DNA of 36,375 nucleotides. Origin: Deltaproteobacteria bacterium. Its GTDB lineage: Bacteria; Desulfobacterota; Syntrophia; Syntrophales; UBA2210. A model generated the notes under the pieces. That model did not search any database, was not told the DNA's origin, and saw only the letters and a program-made list of their open reading frames with translations. The first letter of the stretch is position 1, and the number at the start of each line of letters is the position of its first letter. The position numbers and the translations under genes are program-made. The DNA lies in contig JAPLJO010000125.1 in NCBI GenBank assembly GCA_026388515.1, positions 1 through 36,375 of the forward strand, read 5' to 3'. Shown piece after piece: positions 6,290 through 36,375 of this stretch.

Positions 6290-7990
6290 TTAATAGAAGG
6301 CGCTTAACTGGAAATACCAGACGCCCCTATTTTTGAAATCCTCATCCTGCGGCTCATCGCCGCCGACGCTCCTCGCCCAGTCAATCTTCGCTTCCACGTA
6401 GGGAGAGAGGGCGAAGCGAAGCCCAAAACCCTGACCGATAAATTCGCCGCTTCCCACTTCGTCAATGGCCGCATCCTTGACGGATACACTGGCCGCATCA
6501 ATGAAGGCGGCAAAGGCCATCGAGAATCCCCATGTCTCCGCGCCTATCCACTTAAAGTCACGACTCCAGAAGGGAACCCTGACTTCAAGGGTTCCGTAGA
6601 CGCCGCTATCGCCGCTGTATTCGCCCATGCCATAGCCGCGGACGGTGCCCGCGCCGCCCACGCTGAGCTCTTCACCCGAGGGAAGGCGGTCGGCGCTGAT
6701 CTGGCCGCCGAGAGACAATACCGCATTAATGTTATAGGGGAAAAGCTGGTAGCGGGTGGCAAGAAATTCCGTCTTGGTGAACGTGCTGTCTGCCTCATGG
6801 CGGGATTCGATTGCATTATCTTTTATACCCTGCCGGAAGGTGGCGGAAAAGTAATTGCGCCCGTTCCACGCGTCCACCCAGTCCACAGAGGCACCCGCGC
6901 GGAGCACGACGAGCTCATCCTTATAAAGCTGCGTATCGAGGATATCGTTGGTGAGATGCTTGTAATCCACGCCGAAGTCGCCGAAGACGCTCAGACTTCG
7001 TGACCTGACGAAGGGATGGCTCACCCACAGGCTCGCGATTCTGGATTTGCCTGTAGCGTCGAGCACTTCAAGCTCCCTGCCTGCCGTGTATTCGAGGTAA
7101 CTGTAGGAGGCGCCCACTTTCGTTCCACAGTAATTGACGGGAAAGATGTACTCGAGACGCCCGTAGTACAGCTCGTCGTCCTCGCCGATGTCAAATCCCG
7201 CGCGGAGAGAGTCGCCGTATTTGAAGGGATTGTACAGTGAACCGTTGATTCCAAAGCGGTTCCGCGCCACGTAGCGCGAGCCGAAATTATTGTAGTCAAG
7301 ACCAATGCCCCATATCTTCGATTCCGTCACGTCCACGATGATGTCTGTGGTGCCCGGCGCGTCACCCGCCATAAGCGTTGATTTCACGCTCATTCCGGGA
7401 TAATCCATGAGAAGCAGCAGCGCCCGTTCCAGGTCCGCCGTACTCAGGGCGCCCCTGTCACGGACAATCTTCATCACGTTCTGGATGAGTTCCTCTTTGT
7501 ATCGCTCGTTACCCCTGACGATGACCTTGCCGAGGCGCCCCTCTCGAATGGCAACGACCACACGGCCGCTCTCGATGGTCTGGGGCGGAATGTATACCTT
7601 TGTCAGCACGAAAAGCTTTTTTATATAGTAGGAGGATACCTTGTCGACAATCTGCTGGAGATCGTTTACTTCGATGGTCTTCCCGATAAAATCTTTGACG
7701 ACGTCACGCAGTTCGTCTTCTGAGATGACTTCGTTGCCATCGAAGGCGATTTCCCTCACCTCGACGGTGACGCCCTCGGCGCCCTTGAACTTGCGTCCTT
7801 CGTCATCCTTGATTATTATTTCGGGAAGCGAGGGGAGCTTGCGCACATCCTCCTTCTGGAGAGATTGCTGAACCGCGCCTGTCTTGGCACCCTCCGGAAT
7901 TACTGGCGGCGCAGACCACGCCACGGAACAAAGCATGACGAAAAGAATTACCTGACTCAGGACCACCGGTTTTAAGATTAGTCTTTTCAC
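6290..7990 (-). CDS. TpsB outer-membrane transporter, ShlB/FhaC/HecB family
   Basis: Exports the downstream TpsA protein across the outer membrane. I chose GTG at 7990 because AGGAGG lies 5 nt upstream and the product then begins with a classical signal peptide (VKRLILKPVVLSQVILFVML, cleavage near Ala27); an in-frame TTG at 8020 would add ten unconvincing residues. About 566 aa, the normal size. Residues about 73-145 form the first POTRA domain (VREIAFDGNEVISEDEL), followed by a second POTRA-like segment (GKVIVRGNERYKEEL), then a beta-barrel of about 330 residues. The conserved lid-loop motif VRGYGMGEY is at about residue 450, and the chain ends in aromatic residues (WYFQLSAFY), as expected for BAM-inserted barrels. 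The gap to the tpsA gene is 113 bp, so the two are likely co-transcribed. Confidence 0.95.
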   Translation of the reverse strand: MKRLILKPVVLSQVILFVMLCSVAWSAPPVIPEGAKTGAVQQSLQKEDVRKLPSLPEIIIKDDEGRKFKGAEGVTVEVREIAFDGNEVISEDELRDVVKDFIGKTIEVNDLQQIVDKVSSYYIKKLFVLTKVYIPPQTIESGRVVVAIREGRLGKVIVRGNERYKEELIQNVMKIVRDRGALSTADLERALLLLMDYPGMSVKSTLMAGDAPGTTDIIVDVTESKIWGIGLDYNNFGSRYVARNRFGINGSLYNPFKYGDSLRAGFDIGEDDELYYGRLEYIFPVNYCGTKVGASYSYLEYTAGRELEVLDATGKSRIASLWVSHPFVRSRSLSVFGDFGVDYKHLTNDILDTQLYKDELVVLRAGASVDWVDAWNGRNYFSATFRQGIKDNAIESRHEADSTFTKTEFLATRYQLFPYNINAVLSLGGQISADRLPSGEELSVGGAGTVRGYGMGEYSGDSGVYGTLEVRVPFWSRDFKWIGAETWGFSMAFAAFIDAASVSVKDAAIDEVGSGEFIGQGFGLRFALSPYVEAKIDWARSVGGDEPQDEDFKNRGVWYFQLSAFY

Positions 7991-23293: not shown

Positions 23294-24312
23294 GCGTTCA
23301 TCAGATGACATGAGTCCACCCATGCGAATATTTTTCCCATCTGTGTTTCATAGGTATAGTCGGCGAGCACCCTTTGCTGACCCGCCAGGGCAATCCGGCG
23401 CCGCTCACCGTCATTGCGAAGATAATACCCCACCTTCTCAACCATTTCATCAGGCGTGTCAAATACCGCCACCTCCTCGCCGACCCTGAAGGCATCTTCA
23501 ATTCCCGGCGTCCGGCGACAGAGATAAAAACCACCGCACCCCGGCACGGCAAGACTACGGTTGCTGAGGCTCCTTCCCCGGACCGGGAGGTCGGCATCCT
23601 GGCCGATGAAAATCCCCGTCCCCCTGACCACCCCGGCAAAATCACGCATGTACACCTCACGACCCGCCCAGGCGCGGTGCACCCCGCCCAGAAAATAAGG
23701 CAGGTTCTTCAGCTGCCGCGAAAGCCGGGGACCCCACCAGCGGACGGCTATCCCCTCGCGCCGCAACCGCATGACCATCTCGCAACGCGTCCGGTAGATC
23801 GGCGCCCCCATGGAGCCAATCATCGCCACGTCCGTATGAAACTGCCGGGGCGAGTTCTGCCCCGATTCGCCAATGCCGAAAAAGGCCGGCGCAAAACCCT
23901 GGTGCACCCACTTCACGTGCCGTACGCCGCACCGCTGAAAAAACTCTACGTGATCCTCCACGTTGGTGCATACAAAATCATGCGCCAGGGCAAGGGGCGT
24001 CATCCAGTCTTCGAGGGGAATCATGGTAAACCATAGAATTGTCACACAGCCGGCACGCCGGAATTTCTCCACGAGGCCGGGGGATAATTTTTCACCTTTT
24101 AACGTAACGACATACGTTGGCTTTTCCCTTTCGACGATGCCCGGCAGGTCTTCTTCAAACCGCGGGTTGGTGCGGTAGTCGTACCCGATGACCCGATAGC
24201 CGAGACCTTCCATGGCCGCCGCCATGTACCGCCCCGAATTAAGGGGACTGTCGATTGGCCCGCAGAAAAGAACGGTCTTCCAACCGTGTCCTTCATCCGT
24301 TATACTTCCCAT
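23290..24312 (-). CDS. CgeB-like glycosyltransferase
   Basis: Putative GT-B glycosyltransferase of the CgeB/spore-maturation-protein-like group. The N-terminal half has VLFCGPIDSPLNSGRYM and an alternating beta-alpha pattern. The C-terminal half has the family's nucleotide-sugar region: GRSLSNRSLAVPGCGGFYLC followed by an acidic stretch (EEVAVFDTPDEMVEKVGYYL). 340 aa. It starts 7 bp after the P-loop kinase stop. The donor and acceptor are unknown. Confidence 0.8.
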   Translation of the reverse strand: MGSITDEGHGWKTVLFCGPIDSPLNSGRYMAAAMEGLGYRVIGYDYRTNPRFEEDLPGIVEREKPTYVVTLKGEKLSPGLVEKFRRAGCVTILWFTMIPLEDWMTPLALAHDFVCTNVEDHVEFFQRCGVRHVKWVHQGFAPAFFGIGESGQNSPRQFHTDVAMIGSMGAPIYRTRCEMVMRLRREGIAVRWWGPRLSRQLKNLPYFLGGVHRAWAGREVYMRDFAGVVRGTGIFIGQDADLPVRGRSLSNRSLAVPGCGGFYLCRRTPGIEDAFRVGEEVAVFDTPDEMVEKVGYYLRNDGERRRIALAGQQRVLADYTYETQMGKIFAWVDSCHLMNA

Positions 24313-24319
24313 GGCTGCT

Positions 24320-24901
24320 CTAATGATTGCATATTCCGGTGATGATCCTCTTTATCATCCACTGAATCAACCACGCCGTTATCTCACGAGAGTTGTTGAT
24401 GAGCGTCAGAGACTTCCCGTACCGAAAGGAATCCTCGAGGGGTATTGTCCGCTTTTCTTTCTGAATAAGAAACTTGTCCGGATGGTGCCGATATCGTCTC
24501 TGCAGGCGTGCGAGACGAATCTCTTCGTCCGTCGTCAGGAAAATCATGATATCGGCATTATCGAGAAAGCGGCCGGGAATCCAGTTTGAAAAAAAAATGA
24601 CCTTCGCGGAAGCGGAGCCTACGAAATCACCGATGATTTTCTTTTCGCCGGGAAGCTTATCCCAGTGAAGCCTCCAGAATCGCGTGGTGTAGACCGTATT
24701 GTCATCGATCACGGTGATGTCCCGTCTCGGAATACTTCCAAATCCGAAGCGCACGAACTGCTTTGCCACATGGGTCTTGCCGGAGCCGGGAAGTCCCGCC
24801 AGCGCGATCACCACCTTCCCTTTTTCACGGAGAAGATCGTTGACCGCCCTCAGCAGCACCTCGCAGCCCTGTTTCCCTTGAAATGTTCCGAGATCAATCA
24901 T
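24320..24901 (-). CDS. P-loop kinase/ATPase of LPS cluster
   Basis: Small nucleotide-binding protein with Walker A GLPGSGKTH near residue 36, then VIDDNTVY (a likely Walker B/acceptor region) and IFLTTDEEIRLARLQRR, which resembles the lid region of adenylylsulfate- or gluconate-kinase-like enzymes. 193 aa. ATGA overlap with the heptosyltransferase stop shows tight coupling. It probably phosphorylates a sugar or sugar-lipid made by this cluster, but that is inference; I cannot assign a named family. Confidence 0.75.
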   Translation of the reverse strand: MIDLGTFQGKQGCEVLLRAVNDLLREKGKVVIALAGLPGSGKTHVAKQFVRFGFGSIPRRDITVIDDNTVYTTRFWRLHWDKLPGEKKIIGDFVGSASAKVIFFSNWIPGRFLDNADIMIFLTTDEEIRLARLQRRYRHHPDKFLIQKEKRTIPLEDSFRYGKSLTLINNSREITAWLIQWMIKRIITGICNH

Positions 24902-25983
24902 GATGGCTTCGTAAAAAGTCCTGCTTCCGCGTGGCGCTTTATCTGCAATTCCACGGCCGCCACTACCTCACCGAGGGATAGCTCCTGAAGGCAACGGCTC
25001 CACAGCCCGTCGTCGTCGCAGCCTTTTTTGCGGCAGGGCACACACTCCCAGGATTTCTGCACCACACTATGTCCTTCCCCGAAAGGTCCCCAGCGCCGTT
25101 GATTCTGAGGGCCGAAGAGCGCCACGACCGGTGTCTTCGCCGCCGCCGCGATATGCATCGGCCCCGAATCAACCCCCACAAAAAGAACCGCATTGCCTAT
25201 CAACGCAATCAGATTTCTCAGTGACAGACAACCGGCAAGATTGACCGCGCGGCCATTCGACAGCTGCTCCACGCGCTCGATGAATTTCCGCTCACTCTCA
25301 GTAGTCCCGCATACCAGGATCGGACGGATATTCCATGTATCATGCAGATACTCACAAAGCGCCGCGCATTCCTCACTCTTCCATTCCCTGTACCGGGCGA
25401 AGAGTGTGGGATGAATGACCGCGTACCGGTCATGCATCGCCACACCTTTTTCCTGTAAAATGCCCCGGCACGATTCATACTCTTCTTCGCTCCAGAAAAC
25501 GGCGGGTTCCGTCGTCACGGGAGCATGCCCAAGGTATTCAATCATCCGGAGCTGATCATGAACGATATGCGTCGCGCCGTTTGAATGTACCAGGTCCGTA
25601 TACAGGACATGCCGGTCGAATTTTTTTATCTTCTTCGATGCAAAACCAAGCCTGCGCGGTGCGCCGCTCACGTAACCCGTGAATGCTCCGCGGTCGTTGC
25701 CGGTAAGCTCCAGGACGAGATCAAAGCGCTGCCGGCGGATATCGCGGAGGAACCGGAACTGCTCCCATCCATCACGAAAGAAACCGGGGAACCTGCGCAA
25801 TGGCAGTATATTATCAAGATGCGGGTTATTGGCAAGTATGCCCTCCGTTCCTTTGTTCACCACCGCAGTTATGCGCGCCTCCGGGTAGCAATGCCGCAGT
25901 GAGGCGAAGACAGGTGTGATGATGATAACGTCGCCGATGCTCTTTAATTTCACCACCAGTATGTTGTGAAACGTATCGGGCAT
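24898..25983 (-). CDS. Lipopolysaccharide heptosyltransferase-like glycosyltransferase family 9
   Basis: GT9 enzyme, likely adding a heptose (or related residue) to the inner core from an ADP-heptose donor. Near the N-terminus ILVVKLKSIGDVIIITPVFA is the GT9 start motif; VIHPTLFARYREWK and GVDSGPMHIAAAAKTPVVAL are the donor-binding region. It has WaaQ/RfaQ-like features, including CVPCRKKGC near the end. I chose ATG 25983 over TTG 25995. The last residues (LFTKPS) and stop are encoded by bases matching the end of a dispersed repeat (24900-24920). ATGA overlap with the following kinase gene. Confidence 0.9.
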   Translation of the reverse strand: MPDTFHNILVVKLKSIGDVIIITPVFASLRHCYPEARITAVVNKGTEGILANNPHLDNILPLRRFPGFFRDGWEQFRFLRDIRRQRFDLVLELTGNDRGAFTGYVSGAPRRLGFASKKIKKFDRHVLYTDLVHSNGATHIVHDQLRMIEYLGHAPVTTEPAVFWSEEEYESCRGILQEKGVAMHDRYAVIHPTLFARYREWKSEECAALCEYLHDTWNIRPILVCGTTESERKFIERVEQLSNGRAVNLAGCLSLRNLIALIGNAVLFVGVDSGPMHIAAAAKTPVVALFGPQNQRRWGPFGEGHSVVQKSWECVPCRKKGCDDDGLWSRCLQELSLGEVVAAVELQIKRHAEAGLFTKPS

Positions 25984-25991
25984 GGCGGCTG

Positions 25992-27137
25992 TCAATTCCT
26001 GAAGATCCTCTTGTATATATCAAGCACCTGCGATGCGTGCCGTTCCCAGGTAAAGCGTTCAAGCAGGCCGGCATTCACCTCCTCCATTATCTTTCTATCC
26101 AGTGCCAGCCCCTTTTTCACCTTCTCCGCTATCTCACGGGCATCAAGAGGGTCTTCGATTATATACCCGTTGGCCCCCTCCTTGAGAATTTCAGACGCTC
26201 CGCATATCCTCGATACCACGACGGGAAGACCCGATGCGATCGCTTCCAGGCACACATTACCGAACGGTTCATAAATGGTGGGGAAGACAAGCATGTCACT
26301 TGCCCGGTAAAATTTTTCCACCCCCGATACCGGGCCCGCGAAGTGAATCCTTTTCTCAACACCGAGACGCTGCGCCATTGAGCGGTACTGCTTGATACGG
26401 TCCTTGCCGACTACTATCATCCGTATGTGAGTATCAAGATATGCCATTGACTGAATGGCCGCCGCAAGTCCCTTGCGTTTGAAACCTGAACCGACAAAAA
26501 GGATTATTTTGTCTCCGCCCGGGATACCAAAAGACGCTCTGACATTGAGCGCCTCATCATCACGTTTCTCAGAACGAAACCGTTCGGTATCGACGGGATT
26601 ATATATGACCTCGATTTTATCGCCCGGAACCCCGTAATGACGCATGATCTCGGCCTTCCCGCGGCTGGAATTGGCAATAATCATTTTATAGTTCCCCTCG
26701 GTAAATATCTTCTTTTCTATCCAGAGAAGAGAAATGTGGAGGGGATTGAATGTATGCATCACCGTCTTGTAGAAGGGATCGATTTTCTTTCTCTGTATCA
26801 GCCATTCACGGTGACAGCCGTCTCCCGCCCGAAACACGTCCTGGTAGAGCGTCCTTTCAAAACTATGAATGATATCAAAAGATTCCCGACGCAGGAGACG
26901 CCGCGCATTCAGTGCGAATGTCATCACCTCGAAGACAGAGAGCCCTCTCACGACGGGTACTCTGTGGAACTTGATGTAATGATGATTGTGCGACGGCTTC
27001 TGTCCCCCCACCCTCCATTCGCTCGCAAAGAGGTGTATTTCGTGTTCCGACTGGGCAAGATGCTCGGCGAGTGACGCCAGGTAGCGTTCGGCGCCTCCAA
27101 AGTCGGAGTATTTTTGACGGACCAGTGCGATTTTCAT
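25992..27137 (-). CDS. Glycosyltransferase family 4 (WaaG-like)
   Basis: GT-B fold, retaining glycosyltransferase. The N-terminal glycine-rich acceptor loop is KYSDFGGAERYLASL. The donor half contains ILFVGSGFKRKGLAAAIQSM and the E-x7-E motif in YEPFGNVCLEAIASGLPVVV. The motif HSFERTLYQDVFRAGDGCHR is characteristic of WaaG (RfaG), the enzyme that adds the first outer-core glucose. 381 aa, normal. It lies 12 bp after the upstream methyltransferase stop and ends close to the heptosyltransferase start. Confidence 0.9.
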   Translation of the reverse strand: MKIALVRQKYSDFGGAERYLASLAEHLAQSEHEIHLFASEWRVGGQKPSHNHHYIKFHRVPVVRGLSVFEVMTFALNARRLLRRESFDIIHSFERTLYQDVFRAGDGCHREWLIQRKKIDPFYKTVMHTFNPLHISLLWIEKKIFTEGNYKMIIANSSRGKAEIMRHYGVPGDKIEVIYNPVDTERFRSEKRDDEALNVRASFGIPGGDKIILFVGSGFKRKGLAAAIQSMAYLDTHIRMIVVGKDRIKQYRSMAQRLGVEKRIHFAGPVSGVEKFYRASDMLVFPTIYEPFGNVCLEAIASGLPVVVSRICGASEILKEGANGYIIEDPLDAREIAEKVKKGLALDRKIMEEVNAGLLERFTWERHASQVLDIYKRIFRN

Positions 27138-27149
27138 CTTACGATTCCA

Positions 27150-27791
27150 TCATTTTTCCAGCAGGAAGAAGCGATGATACACATTCTCGGGAATGGAAGT
27201 ATCGACAATAATCTTGAATTTCGCCTTTTCGATATCATGGATGATTTTTTTCAATGGATACTCTTTTATATCTATCTCCCACCGATGACTCCGCCCCGAC
27301 GGCTTTTCGTACCCCTGATACCGCGGAAAATCCCGGAAGGCATGATGACTCTCGCCCTGCCTCATCCATGGGCTGTGAAGCGAAACATGGAGATACTTTC
27401 TTCTCTGCGGAAGCGACAGGGCAACATGCTTCCGGGAAATCTTATAGAGCGAGCACAGGCACGGGTAAAAATACCGGTAGTCCAGATGCTCCAGAACCTG
27501 GAAGCACGCCACCAGGTCAAACGACGTATCCCTGAAGGGAAGATGCCTGATGTCGGCCGTCACATCGGGCGTGAGCGTTGTTAAAATATCACAGGTGATG
27601 ACTTCATGGCCCAGTTTTTTTTCAATCGCCGATGCAATTCCGTCTCCGATTCCTATCTCCAGCACTTTTTCAGGATTACATGACGACACCAGCTGCATCT
27701 GCCAGTAATAACTGAGCCAGCGCTGATACGTAATTTTTCTGTAATAGGCGCCGTCTTTACACTGAATCGACGATCCCCGGTGTTTCATCAT
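27150..27791 (-). CDS. Class I SAM-dependent methyltransferase
   Basis: Motif I is VLEIGIGDGIAS, followed by VITCDI (motif II) and LPFRDTSFDLVACFQVLEHL (motifs III/IV), a typical Methyltransf_11 pattern. The C-terminal region is aromatic and His-rich. Start at tandem ATGs with TGAGGA about 5 nt upstream. 213 aa. It sits between a family 2 and a family 4 glycosyltransferase, so a glycan or a lipid carrier is the likely substrate. Confidence 0.85.
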   Translation of the reverse strand: MMKHRGSSIQCKDGAYYRKITYQRWLSYYWQMQLVSSCNPEKVLEIGIGDGIASAIEKKLGHEVITCDILTTLTPDVTADIRHLPFRDTSFDLVACFQVLEHLDYRYFYPCLCSLYKISRKHVALSLPQRRKYLHVSLHSPWMRQGESHHAFRDFPRYQGYEKPSGRSHRWEIDIKEYPLKKIIHDIEKAKFKIIVDTSIPENVYHRFFLLEK

Positions 27792-27914
27792 GTATCCTCA
27801 ATGCGGCCTGACCCGGGAGCGATGGTGGCTCTTTCCGGCCTGCCGGCCATCGCGAATCGGAATGACAGGAGCGCTCCCTGCACACTGCGGCCTGCAACCC
27901 GGCGCTGCCGCGCC
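27792..27914. repeat. Probable degenerate remnant of the dispersed palindromic repeat
   Basis: This 123-bp gap inside an otherwise tightly packed operon has CCGGCCTGCCGGCC (palindromic) and GGAATGACAGG, resembling the GGAATGAC end of the repeats at 9551 and 35340. Too decayed to be certain. Confidence 0.3.
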
Positions 27915-28706
27915 TCAACGTCTGGTGATGCGTTCCGTCCGGAGGTATTTCCAGTTCGCGATTTTTTCGTGCAGCTTGGCGTACTTGTAAAAGATTTCTT
28001 CAAAATTACCAAGGGCGATCATAAAGCCGGCCCATCCATCCAGGATGCCGCCCTTGATAATCCAAGTATGAAAGAAGGCCCAGAGCGCGTGAGACAATGC
28101 CTTCCCCATACCGGCCGTCACACCCCTTGAATTCAGCTTTACCGCGCCAAGGTCCGAATAGCGCTGCACCTTCTGAAGCCGCTCGGCGAATTTTTCAAAG
28201 GGAACCTGCCATATTGCGTTCTTCAGGTAATCGGGTTTCGTGCCGGTTGTCAGGTCAAATCCCTCATGCACTTCATCCTGCCGGTATACAAGCGCCCCCT
28301 TCCGGAAAAGCTGCGGCTGGCGATAGTCGGGATAATAGCCCGAGAACCGGATCCACCTCCCCATGAAATAGTTCCTTCGGGGCATGTAGTACGCATCCTT
28401 CGGGTTATCCGAATTAATCACCTGTAAAATTTCATCCCGCGCCTCCGGTGTGCAGCGTTCATCGGAATCGAGGCTGAATATCCATTCATGGGAACAGGCG
28501 GCCACCGCCTGGTTTCTGAGATCGCCGAACCCCTTGAATTCCACCTGGACGACTCTGGCGCCGAGACCGGACGCTATCTCGGCCGTTCTGTCTTCGCTGT
28601 GTGAATCAACGAGCACAATCTCGTCGGCCCACAAGACCGACTTCACGGCGTCTTCTATTTTGCTTTCCTGATTATAGGCTATGATATAGGCGGATATTTT
28701 TTTCAT
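27915..28706 (-). CDS. Glycosyltransferase family 2 (WaaE/KdtX-like)
   Basis: GT-A fold transferase, similar in layout to WaaE, which adds glucose to inner-core heptose. N-terminus KISAYIIAYNQESKIEDAV; the donor-binding acidic motifs are VDSHSEDRT and FSLDSDERCTPEARDEI; then RRNYFMGRWIRFSGYYPDYR and QLFRKGALVYRQDEVHEGF, both typical of the WaaE group. A hydrophobic stretch near the end (ALWAFFHTWIIKGG) may touch the membrane. I preferred ATG 28706; GTG 28718 is four codons upstream and too close to the AGGA. 263 aa. Confidence 0.88.
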   Translation of the reverse strand: MKKISAYIIAYNQESKIEDAVKSVLWADEIVLVDSHSEDRTAEIASGLGARVVQVEFKGFGDLRNQAVAACSHEWIFSLDSDERCTPEARDEILQVINSDNPKDAYYMPRRNYFMGRWIRFSGYYPDYRQPQLFRKGALVYRQDEVHEGFDLTTGTKPDYLKNAIWQVPFEKFAERLQKVQRYSDLGAVKLNSRGVTAGMGKALSHALWAFFHTWIIKGGILDGWAGFMIALGNFEEIFYKYAKLHEKIANWKYLRTERITRR

Positions 28707-28785
28707 GATGGTGCTCACTTCCTGTCATGCGTGCGCGCAGGGGAAATCGTGTGAATGCCGGCCGTCGGAAGAGGCAATGGCGCTC

Positions 28786-30162
28786 TCAGAAATGTTTCAT
28801 GGGCGGTTTTCCGACGGGATATACATTGAAACCGATGGCAAACAATTTTTCGTGGTTCAGAATATTCCTGCCGTCAAATATGAACGCGGGCTTATTCATC
28901 ACGCGGTATATTTTTTTATAATCAAGCTCCCTGTAAAGGCTCCATTCGGTGAGTACGGCGACGGCATCGCACGAAACGGCGGCGTCATAGGGATCATTTT
29001 TGTAGATCACGGTCCCTTTTATATCTTCCAGGTCTTTTTCGGCGTTCTGCAGCGCCCGGGGGTCCGTGATCACCAGTTCAGCCCGCTCCTCGCATAACCG
29101 CTTCGTAATATATATCGCGGGGCTTTCCCGAGTGTCGCCCGTATTTGCCTTGAAGGCAAACCCGAAGAGGCATATTCTTTTTCCCGCCAGGGTATCGAAC
29201 ATGGCATTCAATATGCCGAGGACGAAGCGTTCCTTCTGGTACTCATTGATTTTCACCACCCCTTCCCAGTAGTCCGCCACCTCATCGAGACCGTAATGGC
29301 GGCAGAGATAGACCAGGCTCAGGATGTCCTTCTTGAAGCATGACCCACCGAATCCGATACCGGCATTGAGATATGTGCCGCCGATACGATGGTCCAGCCC
29401 CACGGCGCGGGCGACTTCCGTGATGTCCGCCTCCGTCTTTTCACAGAGCTCGGTGAAAGAATTGATGGACGATATCCGCTGCGCCAGAAACGCATTGGCG
29501 ACCAGTTTCGATAGTTCGCTGCTCCAGATATTCGTCGTCAGAATCTTCTCCCGCGGAACCCAGTTGAGAAATATTTCAACCATCTCGTCCCGGGCCCTCA
29601 ACCCTCCGGGTGTTTCATGGGACCCGACGAGGACGCGGTCGGGGGTTTCCAGGTCGGCAATCGCCGTTCCCTCGGCAAGAAACTCGGGATTCGATACTAT
29701 GTCGAAATGAACTCCCGTCTTCGTCGCCGACAGGATCCGCTCCATGGCAAAGGCGGTCCTCACCGGGAAGGTGCTTTTCTCAACAATGATCTTGTCCGAT
29801 TCGGCATTGTCGCGGATCTGACGGGCGGTTTTTTCCCAGAACTGGAGATCCGGCGCCATGCCGGAGCCGGTGCCAAAAGTCTTGGTGGGTGTGTTCACAC
29901 TCACAAAGATAATTTTCGCTTCCTTTATTCCGCGCTCAATATCGGTGGAGAAAAAGAGGTTCTTGCCCCGCGTGGCGGCGATGATTTCATCGAGCCCCGG
30001 TTCATAGATGGGAAGCTCATCGGAATTCCACCGGGCAATTCTTTCATGATTCGTATCGACCACGGTCACTTTATACCGGGGACACTTGTACGCAATCATG
30101 GCCATGGTGGGTCCCCCCACATAGCCCGCGCCGATGCAGATAATATGCTTTTCAAATTTCAT
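28786..30162 (-). CDS. UDP-glucose 6-dehydrogenase
   Basis: Oxidises UDP-glucose to UDP-glucuronate with two NAD+. NAD-binding GAGYVGG (11-17), substrate motif NPEFLAEGTAI, catalytic cysteine in GFGGSCFKKD (about 275) and late motif FGFAFKANTGDTRESPA. The length (about 458) and local motifs are closer to the animal-type UGDH than to the shorter E. coli Ugd. Start at ATG 30162 with GGTGG upstream (GTG 30171 possible). It sits directly after the 4-epimerase that uses its product. Confidence 0.95.
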   Translation of the reverse strand: MKFEKHIICIGAGYVGGPTMAMIAYKCPRYKVTVVDTNHERIARWNSDELPIYEPGLDEIIAATRGKNLFFSTDIERGIKEAKIIFVSVNTPTKTFGTGSGMAPDLQFWEKTARQIRDNAESDKIIVEKSTFPVRTAFAMERILSATKTGVHFDIVSNPEFLAEGTAIADLETPDRVLVGSHETPGGLRARDEMVEIFLNWVPREKILTTNIWSSELSKLVANAFLAQRISSINSFTELCEKTEADITEVARAVGLDHRIGGTYLNAGIGFGGSCFKKDILSLVYLCRHYGLDEVADYWEGVVKINEYQKERFVLGILNAMFDTLAGKRICLFGFAFKANTGDTRESPAIYITKRLCEERAELVITDPRALQNAEKDLEDIKGTVIYKNDPYDAAVSCDAVAVLTEWSLYRELDYKKIYRVMNKPAFIFDGRNILNHEKLFAIGFNVYPVGKPPMKHF

Positions 30163-30171
30163 GTCCGCCAC

Positions 30172-30278
30172 CGTTTTTTATTTGTGCATCCATAAAGAAT
30201 TGCGCCCTGCATTCGCAGGGACGACGTCCGGAGTCCCGCATCGCGTGAGCAACCACGCCAAACCTTTTTGCAAAGCCG
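30172..30278. repeat. Short hairpin in operon gap, possible repeat fragment
   Basis: CCCTGCATTCGCAGGG forms a 6-bp hairpin next to GACGACGTCC, recalling the first hairpin of the dispersed repeats at 9551 and 35340. Otherwise nothing recognisable in this gap. Confidence 0.3.
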
Positions 30279-31298
30279 TCAGGATTTGACGCTGCCGCCA
30301 TGATACTCCTGGTACCATTCGACAAATCGGCGAAGTCCCTCTTCTATATTTATCTTCGGCTGGTAATCCACCGCTTTCATGAGGTCGTCGATATCCGCCC
30401 AGGTTTCAGGAACATCGCCCGTCTGGAGCGGAAGATAGTTTTTCTTCGCCTTCATGCCGATAAGCTCCTCAAGCACCGCAATGCACCGCTCCAGCTCAAC
30501 CGGCCGGTTGTTGCCGATATTATAAATCCTGTAGGGGGCGAAACTTACGGCGGGATCGGGATTTCTCCCGTTCCAGGCCGGGTCCGCACCGGGAATTCTG
30601 TGAATGATCCTTTTCACCCCTTCGATGATATCATCAATATAGGTAAAGTCACGCTTCATGTTCCCGTTGTTAAACACCTTGATCGGCACTCCTTCAAGAA
30701 TCGCCTTCGTGAAAATGAAATAGGCCATGTCCGGCCTTCCCCAGGGACCATACGCCGTAAAAAACCGTAATCCCGTGCAGGGAAGGTTGTAAAGGTGCGC
30801 ATAGGCGTGGGCCATGAGCTCATTGGCCTTCTTGGTGGCGGCATAAAAGCTGACAGGGTGGTCCACATTGTGATGGACGGAAAACGGTGTCAGCTGATTC
30901 CCGCCGTACACGGAACTGGAGGATGCAAACACCAGATGGCCCGTGCCGGCATTTCTGCATCCCTCGAGGATATTGGTAAACCCGACAAGGTTGCTGTCCA
31001 CATACGCATAGGGATTCTCGAGGCTGTAACGGACGCCTGCCTGCGCAGCAAGATGTACGACCCTGTCGAAGGGGTTCGCGGCGAAAAGGCGGCGGACGCC
31101 TTCCCTGTCGGCGATATCCAGAAGGATAAACCGGAAGCCGGGACGTCCTTCGAGCTGTGCCAGCCTGTCTTTCTTGAGGGTGACGTCGTAGTAGGTGTTC
31201 AGATTATCAAGACCCGCGACTGCACATCCGGCATCAAGAAGTTCCCGGCACAGATGAAAACCGATAAACCCCGCCGCCCCCGTGACAAGAATATTCAT
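30279..31298 (-). CDS. NAD-dependent epimerase, probable UDP-glucuronate 4-epimerase
   Basis: Extended short-chain dehydrogenase/reductase: TGAAGFIGFHLCREL at the N-terminus binds NAD, YAATKKANE (about 148) carries the Tyr-x3-Lys pair, and SSSSVYGGN supplies the Ser. LAAQAGVRYSLENP and NNGNMKRDFTYIDDI are the segments that distinguish UDP-GlcA 4-epimerases from GalE. Converts UDP-GlcA to UDP-GalA, so with the dehydrogenase downstream it forms a two-step route to galacturonic acid for LPS or capsule. 339 aa. First sugar-nucleotide gene of the cluster. Confidence 0.93.
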   Translation of the reverse strand: MNILVTGAAGFIGFHLCRELLDAGCAVAGLDNLNTYYDVTLKKDRLAQLEGRPGFRFILLDIADREGVRRLFAANPFDRVVHLAAQAGVRYSLENPYAYVDSNLVGFTNILEGCRNAGTGHLVFASSSSVYGGNQLTPFSVHHNVDHPVSFYAATKKANELMAHAYAHLYNLPCTGLRFFTAYGPWGRPDMAYFIFTKAILEGVPIKVFNNGNMKRDFTYIDDIIEGVKRIIHRIPGADPAWNGRNPDPAVSFAPYRIYNIGNNRPVELERCIAVLEELIGMKAKKNYLPLQTGDVPETWADIDDLMKAVDYQPKINIEEGLRRFVEWYQEYHGGSVKS

Positions 31299-31395
31299 AG
31301 ACCATACTCCGCGTGACGACCGTCACACACCCGCGCAACCGGTACCTGCCTCGCACTCCACGGGCGCATGACAACCCGCACTTCCCGCCGGTTAT

Positions 31396-31566
31396 TTATT
31401 CCAGCTTCTTCGCCTCATCGATGAGCATGATGGGGATTTCGTCCCGTATCTCATACACAAGCCTGCATGCGTCACAGACAAGGCCGTCTTCCTTCTCATT
31501 GAGATGAATCTCGCCCTTGCACTTCGGGCAGGCGAGGATGTCGAGCAGTTCCTTCTTTATCGCCAT
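31396..31566 (-). CDS. Trm112 family / UPF0434 (YcaR-like) protein
   Basis: A 56-aa protein. It begins KKELLDILACPKCKGEI and has a second pair in LVCDACRLVYEI, so four cysteines form a zinc knuckle; IRDEIPIMLIDEA closes the fold as in all UPF0434 members. ATG at 31566 with GAGGT 7 nt upstream; TAA at 31396-31398. YcaR homologues are often encoded near lpxK and kdsB; here the gene precedes the sugar-nucleotide genes. Family function in bacteria is not settled; in eukaryotes Trm112 activates methyltransferases, and this cluster does carry two. Confidence 0.9.
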   Translation of the reverse strand: MAIKKELLDILACPKCKGEIHLNEKEDGLVCDACRLVYEIRDEIPIMLIDEAKKLE

Positions 31567-31588
31567 GTTCGTACCTCTTCAATAATTC

Positions 31589-31984
31589 TCAGTCCGTTTT
31601 GACGGGATTCGCCGCCAGTATTTCCTGGGCCTGCCGCCGGTACAGTTCGACAAGGTTGAGATAAATCACCGCCACCTCGTTGTGCACGTCCCCTAAAATC
31701 CTCTTTCTCATGTTGAGCGCATCATGGAAGCACTGCTCGGCAAGATCGTAGTCGCGTTGGAGCATGAAGACCATCCCCATATTGTTGTACGTCGTCGCCT
31801 TCTCCCGTGCGTCACCCTTGAATTTCCGGTCAACGAACTCCACCATTTCCTTCCCCCGATCGAGCGCCTCCTGTATCTTTCCGGCATTGAGGAGGCCCAC
31901 CAGTTCATTGTTCTTTTCCCGCCAGATCTCTTCCCTGGGTTTTTTTTCCTCTCCCGATGACCGCTTCTGCAAGAATCCTTTCAT
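31589..31984 (-). CDS. Tetratricopeptide-repeat protein
   Basis: 131-aa soluble protein. Residues 27-60 and 65-105 are TPR-like helix pairs, the second clear: TTYNNMGMVFMLQRDYDLAE then CFHDALNMRKRILG, with AVIYLNLVELYRRQAQ after it. The N-terminus is strongly charged (Lys/Glu-rich). The start codon overlaps the stop of the upstream zinc-ribbon membrane protein frame as ATGA, which is evidence that both frames are translated. Likely a scaffold for partner proteins; no specific role can be assigned. Confidence 0.85.
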   Translation of the reverse strand: MKGFLQKRSSGEEKKPREEIWREKNNELVGLLNAGKIQEALDRGKEMVEFVDRKFKGDAREKATTYNNMGMVFMLQRDYDLAEQCFHDALNMRKRILGDVHNEVAVIYLNLVELYRRQAQEILAANPVKTD

Positions 31985-32468
31985 TGCGCCCCCGTCGTTT
32001 CCTGCGATGAAATACTACCCGCCGCTTTTTTCTTCAACATATCCTCGTGGCGGCTGATTTGTTTCTTCACATAATGATAGAGAAGAAACCCGCCTCCGAT
32101 AAAACCGAGCGAAACACCCACGATGACCGATATCACGACAATGGACACCGGCCTCGCGAGATAATGGACCCGTAGTTCCTGAAATCGTGGGCGGCATAGA
32201 GCGCTGTGAGGACGAGCCCGGCACAGCCGGTGAGAATCCCGAATATGGCAATCATCTGCCACTTCAGGTAATCCTCGAGAAAGGGGTCCTCAAGAATCCG
32301 CGTCGCCGCCTCGCTTTTCCGGTCCTTATGGCCGGAGACGAGTGTCACACCGTCCCCGACCACCGCGATATCCAGCTCCGCGTTGCAGCCGGGGCAGACA
32401 AAAAATTCCTCGTTTTCCTCGACATTGATCGTCGCGTAACACTCAGGGCACCTGACTTCGGTCGTCAC
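31981..32468 (-). pseudogene. Zinc-ribbon, two-helix membrane protein with an apparent frameshift
   Basis: The upstream frame (GTG 32468, AGGAGA 8 nt before; alternative ATG 32489) encodes a zinc ribbon, with CPECYATINV and VCPGCNAEL, then a membrane segment (IAIFGILTGCAGLVLTALYA), and then stops at 32133. The downstream frame encodes a second membrane segment (VSIVVISVIVGVSLGFIGGG), a basic helix and a stop that overlaps the TPR gene start. Neither half makes sense alone after about 32150-32170; one added base there would join them into about 162 residues. It may be a true mutation, a sequencing error or recoding. Function unknown; membrane-anchored zinc sensor or adaptor is a guess. Confidence 0.7.
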
Positions 32469-32770
32469 GGCGTCGCTCTCCTGCTTCATCCACACACCGA
32501 CATGCCCCGCATCTCCGGGGAATCCGGTCCTTTATGACCCCGGACACAACGTGTGGAGTTTTTCATTTCAAAAGTCGGTCGTTAAGTCAAGAGATTTGGC
32601 GGGGATGGTGCGCAAAGGTACATATGAGATGCGCATTAAATTGAAGTTATATTAGCTTACTACTGAAGTAAGCGTCATGATATCTTTAGATTGATCCAAG
32701 GTTTCATCTCATAAATCAATGATAACGCAATAATCAGTCACGAGTGTAACGATACGGCAGAATTGCCTTG
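32469..32770. other. AT-richer intergenic stretch holding direct repeat 1
   Basis: No gene seen. It contains the first 42-bp direct repeat (32567-32608) and a small hairpin GCTTAC/GTAAGC at about 32653. Base composition becomes visibly more AT-rich from here to about 33470. Confidence 0.5.
32567..32608. repeat. 42-bp direct repeat, copy 1
   Basis: 39 of 42 bases identical, same orientation, to 35156-35197. Contains AAGTC twice, 12 bp apart, and on the minus strand CTTGACTTAAC. Lies about 100 bp upstream of the zinc-ribbon gene. Confidence 0.85.
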
Positions 32771-33472
32771 TTAAGGACTCCTTGTCAAACGTCTTTCGAA
32801 CATCTCAAGTTTTGAAATCGCCAGAATTTTCTCGATCTCAGTAATCTCCCTATACTTATCAGTGTAGTTTTCCGGACTCAGGTTGAAATGGACGAGGGTA
32901 ATTGTTAACATGAGATCAAGAATCTGGTCCGAGTAGCCTAAGCATTGGCTGAATATCACTGGATGATGATATCGCCCGGAGCCGTAGAACTTGGGACATA
33001 TGTTTTTTACCCACTTCCCATATGGGTGGGCCCACGCACTTAGTTCATTCCACAGTTTCTGCAAATTATTTTTCTCGTCATTATCCAAGAAACTGATCGA
33101 GGAAATCTTATCTCGCATACTTCCATTTTCTTTTGTTGCTATCCCAATCAGAAGTTCAAAAACACTTCTAAGGAGAATCATGGCCCCAAGATAATCTGTT
33201 GCTCCGATAAGAAGCAGTGCACTCTGATAGACTTTTCCTAGGTAACCCAGGAAAAGCGTTTTCTCTCTCACAGCTTCAACATTCTCGCCAGCCTCGACTC
33301 GTTTCTTGTCGAATTCGATGATTATTTGCTCGGAAACCCTTATAAGATCAAAGGCGTTGGATAGTTTCAGCGAGATTACAGGATCCTGACGGATAGAGTC
33401 GATAAACGGGGCGATGAACTCTCTTTTCAGGACAAGTTCAATTTGCTTCTTTGGAACCCATTTTGTTGTCAT
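32771..33472 (-). CDS. Hypothetical helical protein, possibly DUF5677/HEPN-like
   Basis: 233 aa, mostly helical, no signal peptide. The segment GAMILLRSVFELLIGIATKE (R-x3-E core), followed later by LWNELSAWAHPYGKW, resembles the R-x3-E...H pattern of DUF5677/HEPN-type proteins; this is pattern memory, not a search result. The gene is AT-richer than its neighbours and lies between the two direct repeats, suggesting acquisition by transfer. Ribosome-binding site weak. Confidence 0.6.
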   Translation of the reverse strand: MTTKWVPKKQIELVLKREFIAPFIDSIRQDPVISLKLSNAFDLIRVSEQIIIEFDKKRVEAGENVEAVREKTLFLGYLGKVYQSALLLIGATDYLGAMILLRSVFELLIGIATKENGSMRDKISSISFLDNDEKNNLQKLWNELSAWAHPYGKWVKNICPKFYGSGRYHHPVIFSQCLGYSDQILDLMLTITLVHFNLSPENYTDKYREITEIEKILAISKLEMFERRLTRSP

Positions 33473-33547
33473 GGTCAGTCAAAATCCCTATCCTTAACGG
33501 GGCTCATCACATGCTCGTGCAAGGACGGGCTTGGCTATCAAATACTG

Positions 33548-33700
33548 CTACAGCCCGAGGGTTGTCTGGTTGCGACCATGGGTCAGGTGGCCCGTATCGC
33601 CGGCCATCACTGTCACACAGCCATAGTCGCCACGCGGCCTGCCGCTTTCAAAGATGTTCACTATGGCCTGGGCTGTTTTCTTCTGGATTTTACTGATCAT
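33548..33700 (-). pseudogene. Truncated chitosanase-like/phage-type lysis protein fragment
   Basis: ATG 33700 with AGGGGA 7 nt upstream opens a 50-codon frame: KIQKKTAQAIVNIFESGRPR, then DYGCVTVMAGDTGHLTHGRN, then QTTLGL and a TAG. I recall this as the N-terminal part of a family annotated as chitosanase or peptidoglycan-degrading domain, where the text continues TLGSGNL; here it stops. So this is a 5' remnant of a longer gene. The rest of the 33473-33801 gap shows no gene. Confidence 0.5.
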
Positions 33701-33801
33701 AATATGTTCCCCTGTATGTATCAGTACGCGAAGACAATCAGCATCGCCCGCCTGAATAGCGATACGGCCAGTTTGGCATTTTCAATTTATCTTCATCTGC
33801 T

Positions 33802-34863
33802 TCATCCGCAAATGATTCCGTACTCCGGTAATACCTCGTGAAGAGCATGGAAGATATGATAGGACGCCGCATCATGAAAACACTTCCAGTTGCTCACCTC
33901 AAAACCTATCTTTCTTTCATAGATGTCCGGCTTCTTGGAATCTTGTTCATCTTTTATCACCTCAACGGCGCTTCTGAACCATTCGCGGTCGTCATACCTG
34001 AGTGTCTTATCTTCATCCGTAGGACTAAAATTGAACCCGCCCCCCGAGATCGCGGCCTGCCAGCGTTCGCATCTTTCTTCCACGGTTCCTTTCTCACCGA
34101 AAAGCATACTTACTTTCCCGGAAAAATCCTGCCAGGGCACGGAAGCGCTTTCCGCAAATTGGGGATACTGCTTCAGAAACCGGGTCAACACTGCGCAGCA
34201 ATTCTGCGCGGCATCCATGGCGCGTTCATGGTTGAATATTGTATGGTGCCGATCTCTGTAGTCGTAATATTCCCATTCGCGATAAGGCTCATCAGGAAGA
34301 GTGCCGGCCTGTGCATGGCCGAGCATAGGGAACGCATATTCGCATATACGACCCTTAAGATCCCCGCAGACTTTTTCAAACCAACCCGCCTCCTCATCGA
34401 TCACCTTCAGATCTTTCACGTCATTCATATGCTCCCTCTCGACCCCCATGAAATTCTGATGTGACCAGGTATCGGCATAGAGATGAAGGATAATCCCCAG
34501 AAGATGCAGGCTGTAAGGTTTCAGGGGCATCTGGAGAAAATCGTTCACGACCCGCTGGGCTATTATGCTATTGGGCCTCGTGTACATCCGCTCGTAGAAA
34601 TCGACGCCGTGATTGCCGGGAATAAAGTGAAAGGGCACATAAATTGTGTAACTGGTATCCTTGGAGATGGCACCCGCAGCAAGAAACTGGTGTGCCGTTA
34701 ACGTTTGTTGAAACCGTCCTCCATTCTCAAATTCCAGAGTGTGATGGTACTTTGCATCGTCCGTATGCTGGGACGCGTAGGCTGCAATCTTAGCGTTATC
34801 GGGCCCAAACCCGGCGGCTCTCGCAAGCGCGTACACGGTGTTGAAGTGAAAGTCCTTTTCCAT
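33802..34863 (-). CDS. DUF6765-like protein, histidine-rich, possible metal-dependent hydrolase
   Basis: 353 aa from ATG 34863, chosen because GAGGAG lies 7 nt upstream (ATG/other in-frame start at 34878 lacks a site). The N-terminus EKDFHFNTVYALARAAGF with IAAYASQHTDDAKYHH, then ILHLYADTWSHQNFMGVERE, has the H-x3-D-x3-H spacing and tryptophan found in zinc-dependent phospholipase C/nuclease-like folds. I associate these motifs with DUF6765, whose function is not known to me. No signal peptide or membrane segment. It lies inside the direct-repeat island and its 3' neighbour is the chitosanase-like remnant. Confidence 0.72.
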   Translation of the reverse strand: MEKDFHFNTVYALARAAGFGPDNAKIAAYASQHTDDAKYHHTLEFENGGRFQQTLTAHQFLAAGAISKDTSYTIYVPFHFIPGNHGVDFYERMYTRPNSIIAQRVVNDFLQMPLKPYSLHLLGIILHLYADTWSHQNFMGVEREHMNDVKDLKVIDEEAGWFEKVCGDLKGRICEYAFPMLGHAQAGTLPDEPYREWEYYDYRDRHHTIFNHERAMDAAQNCCAVLTRFLKQYPQFAESASVPWQDFSGKVSMLFGEKGTVEERCERWQAAISGGGFNFSPTDEDKTLRYDDREWFRSAVEVIKDEQDSKKPDIYERKIGFEVSNWKCFHDAASYHIFHALHEVLPEYGIICG

Positions 34864-35155
34864 ATTCCATCTCCTCACAGGCGCCTTTCAGATTGACGGT
34901 ACGTCTCGTCACCTCAGTGCACTGGCTTTGCCATGGCTCTGGCTCTGACACTTCGGGCAGCGCATGGACTGCCTCCCCCATCAAAGACTGTGTCATAATT
35001 ACTTTTTTCGTCATTTTGAAAGCAATTTAAATGAGTTGAGAAGCCAAAGTCAATGTAAATCCGGTTACCCTGATTTATAAATATTCATCCGGTGAAGTAT
35101 GTGCCGCACCGTCATCACCGGCCTGACACCGGCAATGGCCCGTGAGACTTCTCAA

Positions 35156-35197
35156 TTCAAAAGTCGGTAGTTAAGTCAAGTGATTTGGTGGGGATGG
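35156..35197. repeat. 42-bp direct repeat, copy 2
   Basis: Same orientation as 32567-32608, with three mismatches. It bounds the right side of the island, about 290 bp upstream of the DUF6765-like gene. Confidence 0.85.
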
Positions 35198-35339
35198 AAT
35201 TACACTATCAGCTTTCGACTAATAGTTTTCTATCATCTTTCCCAAATTGACGGGAACCAGCACATCATCTATTGACACATCCGGGGGTATCGTTCGGATC
35301 GTACACACGTCTCTTTTTCAGAGAACAATCTTGACGTGC

Positions 35340-35478
35340 TCGCAAAAAGTCCCCGGAACGTCACTCCTGCGAAAGCAGGAGTCCAGACGTCGTCCCGGTG
35401 AAAACCGGGAACCAGTGAAACACTGGATTCCGTGTCAAGCACGGAATGACAAAACAGGGCATAACCGACTTTTTACGA
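35340..35478. repeat. MITE-like palindromic repeat, copy 2, with 12-bp terminal inverted repeats
   Basis: Outer arms TCGCAAAAAGTC (35340-35351) and GACTTTTTACGA (35467-35478) are inverted with one mismatch. The core 35359-35450 has three hairpins: CTCCTGC/GCAGGAG, CCCGG/CCGGG, and ATTCCGTG/CACGGAAT. The core matches the copy at 9551-9644. Confidence 0.75.
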
Positions 35479-35500
35479 AGCAATCAATCTTCATAATTCA

Positions 35501-35514: not shown

Positions 35515-36375
35515 ATGAAGAAACTCATATCTATTCTTGTTTTTGCCGCAGTTTTCATTCTGATTGCAGGCATGTCGTCCGGTTCTGAGATTGTTACGTT
35601 TGGTCCAAAAACCTATACCTGCACAAAGCCATTGGTCTATTTCAGCAACTCGTTTACCACATTCCCGGGGCCGGGAACGCTGACCATCCGGAATGGAAGC
35701 GGGAATTATAAAGACCGTGTGTTACTTGCATTGATTGAACTGAACGGAAAAAGAGTTGCGCCATTTCTTCTGCACGCGGGTGCAACAACGACGGCCGTAA
35801 GGTTGGAAAATATCAACACACTTTCCATACGGCTTCTCGGTACCACCGGTTCCTTTATTACCATCACCATCACGCAGAATGTGCAGGCGCCCACCGTCTC
35901 CATCAGTGCCGATCCTTTGTCCATTCAGAAAGGCGAATCATCAACACTCTCATGGGATACCACTTACTCGGATTATTGCGTGATAGACCCCGACATAGGG
36001 ACCGTTGTACCGGTCGGTTCGTGCGCGGTGTCACCCGCTGGAACCACGACATATCACATTTCCGCCGTAGGGCGTGGCGGAACGGCCTCCGGCTCCGTCA
36101 CCGTCGAAGTGACAAAGTCAGCCTACGACCCGCCGACGGTCGACCTCAGTCCACCGAAGGCCGCTATCACGAAGGGCGAATCGATCACCATTTCATGGAC
36201 CTCTGAAGGCGCTCTTAATGCATATATCGATAACAGCGTAGGACCCGTCCCGGCAAACGGCTCCCGCACGGTTACCTCGGAACATACCACCATATCCACA
36301 CTGACGGTAAGCGGGGAAACCGGCTCGGCAAGCGCAACGGCGGAGATTTCGGTGAACGGAGCGCCTGAACTTCCA
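35515..36375 (+). CDS. Secreted Ig-like-repeat surface protein, 3' end beyond window
   Basis: ATG 35515 opens a frame still open at the window edge (287 codons). Residues 1-23 are a signal peptide (KKLISILVFAAVFILIAGMS). Residues 24-125 form an unassigned beta-rich domain (EIVTFGPKTYTCTKPLVYF). Then come at least two tandem Ig-like domains: one from about 128 (PTVSISADPLSIQKGESSTL) with two cysteines, and one from about 202 (PPTVDLSPPKAAITKGESIT), each opening with the same proline-rich linker and ending T-V-x-V. Such repeats usually form stalks of long adhesins or RHS/hemolysin-type exoproteins; the functional end is outside the window. Confidence 0.88.
   Translation, partial: MKKLISILVFAAVFILIAGMSSGSEIVTFGPKTYTCTKPLVYFSNSFTTFPGPGTLTIRNGSGNYKDRVLLALIELNGKRVAPFLLHAGATTTAVRLENINTLSIRLLGTTGSFITITITQNVQAPTVSISADPLSIQKGESSTLSWDTTYSDYCVIDPDIGTVVPVGSCAVSPAGTTTYHISAVGRGGTASGSVTVEVTKSAYDPPTVDLSPPKAAITKGESITISWTSEGALNAYIDNSVGPVPANGSRTVTSEHTTISTLTVSGETGSASATAEISVNGAPELP

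Follow-up and report, generated by a model that had tools for sequence, protein, structure and literature searches.

Integron recombination takes place between bases 1 and 2 of the core site GTTRRRY (PMC8876359), written here as G↓TT. Most genes carried by integron cassettes have no known function, and the remainder are enriched in defence and toxin–antitoxin genes (PMC7370490; PMC8618304). For cassettes without an integrase, off-target insertion and loss of intI have been proposed as origins (PMC8618304), and off-target integron activity has been shown (PMC10127599). The closest described counterparts of the present locus are CALIN and lone cassettes outside integrons, which it resembles in having one ORF with an attC-type site, exact G↓TT ends, unrelated hosts and no integrase nearby. 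It differs in its single attC site, the decayed inner stem of that site and its location beside an LPS block. A CALIN comprises at least two clustered attC sites; a single one was found around the cassette, which therefore falls short of a cluster.

The window, a stretch of 36,375 nt from a Deltaproteobacteria bacterium (contig JAPLJO010000125.1), had been predicted to carry a 2.6-kb accessory island between two direct repeats. Our analysis indicates that the mobile unit is a different and smaller one: very probably a single integron gene cassette at a G↓TT target, which is probably stranded and whose ends are not the repeats. The features of the region are as follows.

32166–32468, minus strand: zinc-ribbon membrane protein gene, 49% identical in the relative G005, last of the conserved LPS-side block
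32567–32608, plus strand: left 42-bp direct repeat
32720–32726, minus strand: 3' junction core, GTTATCA
32726–32776, minus strand: linear part of the attC site, from R'' CCTTAAC to the last G of the cassette
32726–33497, minus strand: integron gene cassette, 772 bp, from the TT of the 5' core G↓TTAAGG to the G of the 3' core G↓TTATCA
32771–33472, minus strand: cassette ORF, 233 aa, predicted all-helical (low-confidence model)
33492–33498, minus strand: 5' core site, GTTAAGG, matching GTTRRRY at 6/7 positions
33551–33700, minus strand: 50-aa ORF, no match found
33802–34863, minus strand: DUF6765 gene (PF20551), 353 aa, outside the cassette
35156–35197, plus strand: right 42-bp direct repeat

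The extent of the cassette was established by comparison with other genomes. A scan of public genomes recovered homologues of the cassette protein, at 83–86% identity, in three MAGs, assigned to Desulfobacterales (L046), Dehalococcoidia (L047) and Deltaproteobacteria (L048). The corresponding DNA aligned with the window at 84–90% identity, and the edges of the homology were sharp. At the 5' end, all four contexts diverge at the same point, G↓TTAAGG; at the 3' end, three of the four diverge at ..TTG(C/T)G↓TTA, and the L048 copy, in which the cassette gene is broken by an IS-type insertion, stops at the identical G and continues with GGC in place of the TTA seen elsewhere. On either side, the four contexts otherwise have unrelated flanking DNA. 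The shared segment is thus a discrete unit with its ends at core sites, and because those ends are the points of integron recombination, we identify the 772-bp segment as an integron gene cassette. The Desulfobacterales and Dehalococcoidia (Chloroflexota) copies are 93% identical at the DNA level in hosts of two phyla, the latter on a 288-kb contig, the former, like the L048 copy, on a short MAG contig that may be mis-binned. The near-identical copies show an apparent movement of the cassette gene between distant bacterial phyla.

The attC-type site measures 57 nt in the circular form, in which it is closed by the cassette's own G↓TTAAGG. Its R'' core, CCTTAAC, overlaps the stop codon of the cassette ORF, and the R'' and R' cores are complementary at 7/7 positions. 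Pairing of the L box is complete in the Desulfobacterales and Dehalococcoidia copies (6/6 each), near-complete in the L048 copy (5/6) and reduced to 4/6 in the window; relative to shuffled sequences, the fold has a z of about −2.4 in L046 and L047 and about 0 in the window. The site is therefore good in those two genomes but worn in the window, where the inner stem is, judging from its pairing and fold, decayed. No convincing attC site was found upstream of the window cassette, and a search of the window for a second attC-like site near the cassette found none. A possible second, decayed cassette upstream (33500–33760; R'' AGACAAC or TGATAGC) has complementary cores, but its fold is no better than that of shuffled sequences, and 7/7 partners occur anyway at 5/48 GTTA cores on the minus strand of the window; it is not claimed here.

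The genome that carries the window (G000) encodes no detectable integron integrase: the best TIGR02249 score was 88 bits (cut-off, 265), and only generic tyrosine recombinases were present, in an assembly of 175 contigs and 2.68 Mb from which an integrase could be missing. Integrases above the 265-bit cut-off were found in 6 of the 20 relatives searched. In one of these relatives, G001 (L069 1–7700), an integron integrase at 6403–7692 adjoins attC-like sites and small genes. Among the hosts of the cassette itself, L048 has its copy beside intI: a TIGR02249 integrase, split into two pieces that score 281 and 131 bits, is situated about 330 bp away. In the Desulfobacterales contig, a canonical attC site (z −7.6) is located one gene upstream of the cassette copy. 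This contig also encodes a group II intron-type reverse transcriptase (772–2265), which has a weak maturase match and precedes cassette-like genes, an arrangement to be expected if an intron lay within an integron array. The gene upstream of the Dehalococcoidia copy (L047 5151–5834) matches PF08915, the archaea-type editing domain of threonyl-tRNA synthetase (E 9.3e-10).

The insertion of a single cassette into a secondary site would be the simplest account of the window locus. An integrase, supplied in trans or by an integron since lost, would have joined the folded attC of the cassette to a G↓TT target with the LPS block on one side and the DUF6765 gene on the other. With no integron integrase detectable in G000 and a decayed inner stem in the attC site, the cassette is probably stranded in its present genome.

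These boundaries bear directly on the original prediction, in which the 42-bp repeats delimited an island, with a partly AT-rich interior, that might still be excised as a circle together with the helical and DUF6765 genes. The repeats themselves were confirmed. They are direct and identical at 39/42 positions, far beyond chance, with a best local alignment of 44/49 that scores 73 against a maximum of 29 in 200 shuffles. They occur just twice in the whole genome (up to 3 mismatches allowed in the core), which rules out the dispersed element that the prediction had named as its refutation. The AT-richness is also real, the cassette having 42% GC against 50% for the DUF6765 gene and 54% for the left flank. 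However, the DNA in common with other genomes stops short of both copies, by 118 bp on the left and 1.66 kb on the right, so that the repeats are not where the mobile segment ends, and no recombinase gene lies between them. The repeat is absent from 99 relatives, with noise-level matches only, and from viral contigs. Moreover, similarity between the copies fades beyond the 42 bp, going on weakly to 74 nt at 77% identity, rather than ending sharply on one side. The prediction also looked to relatives for an empty site with one repeat, but G005, the nearest syntenic relative and our stand-in for a same-genus genome in this comparison, has the LPS block but lacks both the island and the repeat. 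We consider an excisable island highly improbable. What survives of the accessory insertion is an acquired gene just beyond the LPS block, with ends at G↓TT core sites instead of the repeats. Nor do the repeats represent an attC or attI site: their GTTAAGT lies on the strand opposite the cassette and has no partner core.

The repeats, which do not delimit the mobile unit, may be a duplicated upstream segment, perhaps kept for regulation as an operator or promoter of the DUF6765 and zinc-ribbon/LPS units, to which the cassette would be incidental. The original prediction had offered a duplicated promoter or operator as its own alternative, pointing to a minus-strand TTGACT in each repeat, which is present in both copies. 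It is a fair guess, because both copies point the same way and each stands ahead of a minus-strand unit, at about 100 and 290 bp from the likely starts, and the 42-bp core is much better conserved than the adjoining 32 bp. Against it, neither copy has a sigma-70 promoter match, a third copy is lacking from the genome even at 3 mismatches, and neither G001 nor G005 shows conservation of the segment next to its homologues of these genes. The repeats could equally be a functionless relic of an old segmental duplication, in keeping with two copies that have no counterpart elsewhere and with the weak similarity that extends on one side; in this case, the contrast between 39/42 identical positions and about 18/32 alongside would be unexpected, as a neutral duplicate should not be so unevenly conserved. 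We rate the two readings the same, each somewhat below an even chance.

Other repeated sequences were observed in the vicinity. A 9-bp perfect inverted repeat (32623–32631 and 32705–32713) lies in the interval that separates the left 42-bp repeat from the end of the cassette, and a palindromic, MITE/REP-like intergenic repeat of 160 bp (35330–35490) has 14 more matches in the genome at 72–96% identity. The sequence ACCGACTTTT, common to the 160-bp palindromic repeat and the 42-bp repeat, was judged a likely chance occurrence. Further along (35515–36375), a gene for a secreted-looking protein that matches phrog_2155 (PHROG virion structural; E 4.7e-31) runs off the contig.

On the left, the LPS cluster does end where the prediction had placed its end, at the left repeat: synteny with G005 stops at the adjoining zinc-ribbon gene, past which G005 has other genes and no repeat, so the repeats sit at a variable end of the LPS block. 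The block (23861–32468) is collinear with G005:C21 (L074), and this extends to the small TPR and zinc-ribbon genes that adjoin the sugar genes. Compared with its G005 counterpart, the zinc-ribbon gene (32044–32468) carries a frame shift near 32167 that breaks it in two, either as a pseudogene or through an assembly error.

To the right of the cassette, the DUF6765 assignment was borne out, the protein being a full-length member of PF20551 (276.4 bits, cut-off 26.6). By eye, its motif spacing may resemble that of a zinc-dependent phospholipase C, and one homologue matched PF00882 at E 0.099; the model of the protein (pLDDT 68) had no PDB match. The 50-aa ORF between this gene and the cassette had been read as a chitosanase-like remnant, which we could not substantiate, as it had no Pfam, phage, plasmid or relative match. 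It had also been suggested that the helical and DUF6765 genes form a small defence or stress unit, a proposal in keeping with their position as same-strand neighbours in the window. Homology searches of both genes, which the prediction had called for, do not bear this out. The helical gene occurs without a DUF6765 gene in all three other genomes, and the two are therefore not a unit; the DUF6765 gene does not travel with the helical gene, its homologues in relatives having other neighbours (for example in G001, a genome of the same family, at 48% identity), and PADLOC returned no match of weight. A joint defence unit is, in our view, scarcely credible.

We return to the cassette and its product. 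The description of this gene as unrecognised holds, as the protein has no Pfam match over cut-off and belongs to no curated family; its nearest likeness is a weak local one to DUF5677 (PF18928) at residues 77–111, where 35 residues align at 12.9 bits (E 0.12), below the cut-off of 27.1. The further suggestion that it is HEPN-like finds no echo in the sequences, since the RX4-6H motif is absent from 4/4 homologues. The structural model (pLDDT 45) was too poor for a structure search. A match in G096 (E 7.7e-4), located within the frame of an unrelated conserved gene, was judged spurious. A search of 395 genomes of the phylum and 294 genomes of the class of L047 revealed no copies beyond the known ones, and none were found in plasmids, phages or viral contigs. 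Between the cassette copies, dN/dS is 0.10–0.32, a signature of purifying selection and so of a gene kept for its protein; because they reflect the copies' entire history, these averages are no proof of selection in the present host today.

Our best guess, held with low confidence, is that the cassette protein has a host-beneficial function in stress or defence. The sole ground for this guess is the base rate among cassette genes, and nothing in the sequence itself shows it. It is doubtful, yet conceivable, that the protein represents a new family which integrons carry between Desulfobacterota and Chloroflexota, which confers a portable benefit in stress or defence irrespective of the host, and which is kept after integron loss.

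What had been a vague island has become a precise case of one cassette with exact ends and hosts of two phyla. One copy still lies beside an integrase, whereas another is probably stranded, its recombination site apparently decaying and its gene under purifying selection. The locus may therefore be suited to testing whether cassette genes that have become immobile are retained for their function.
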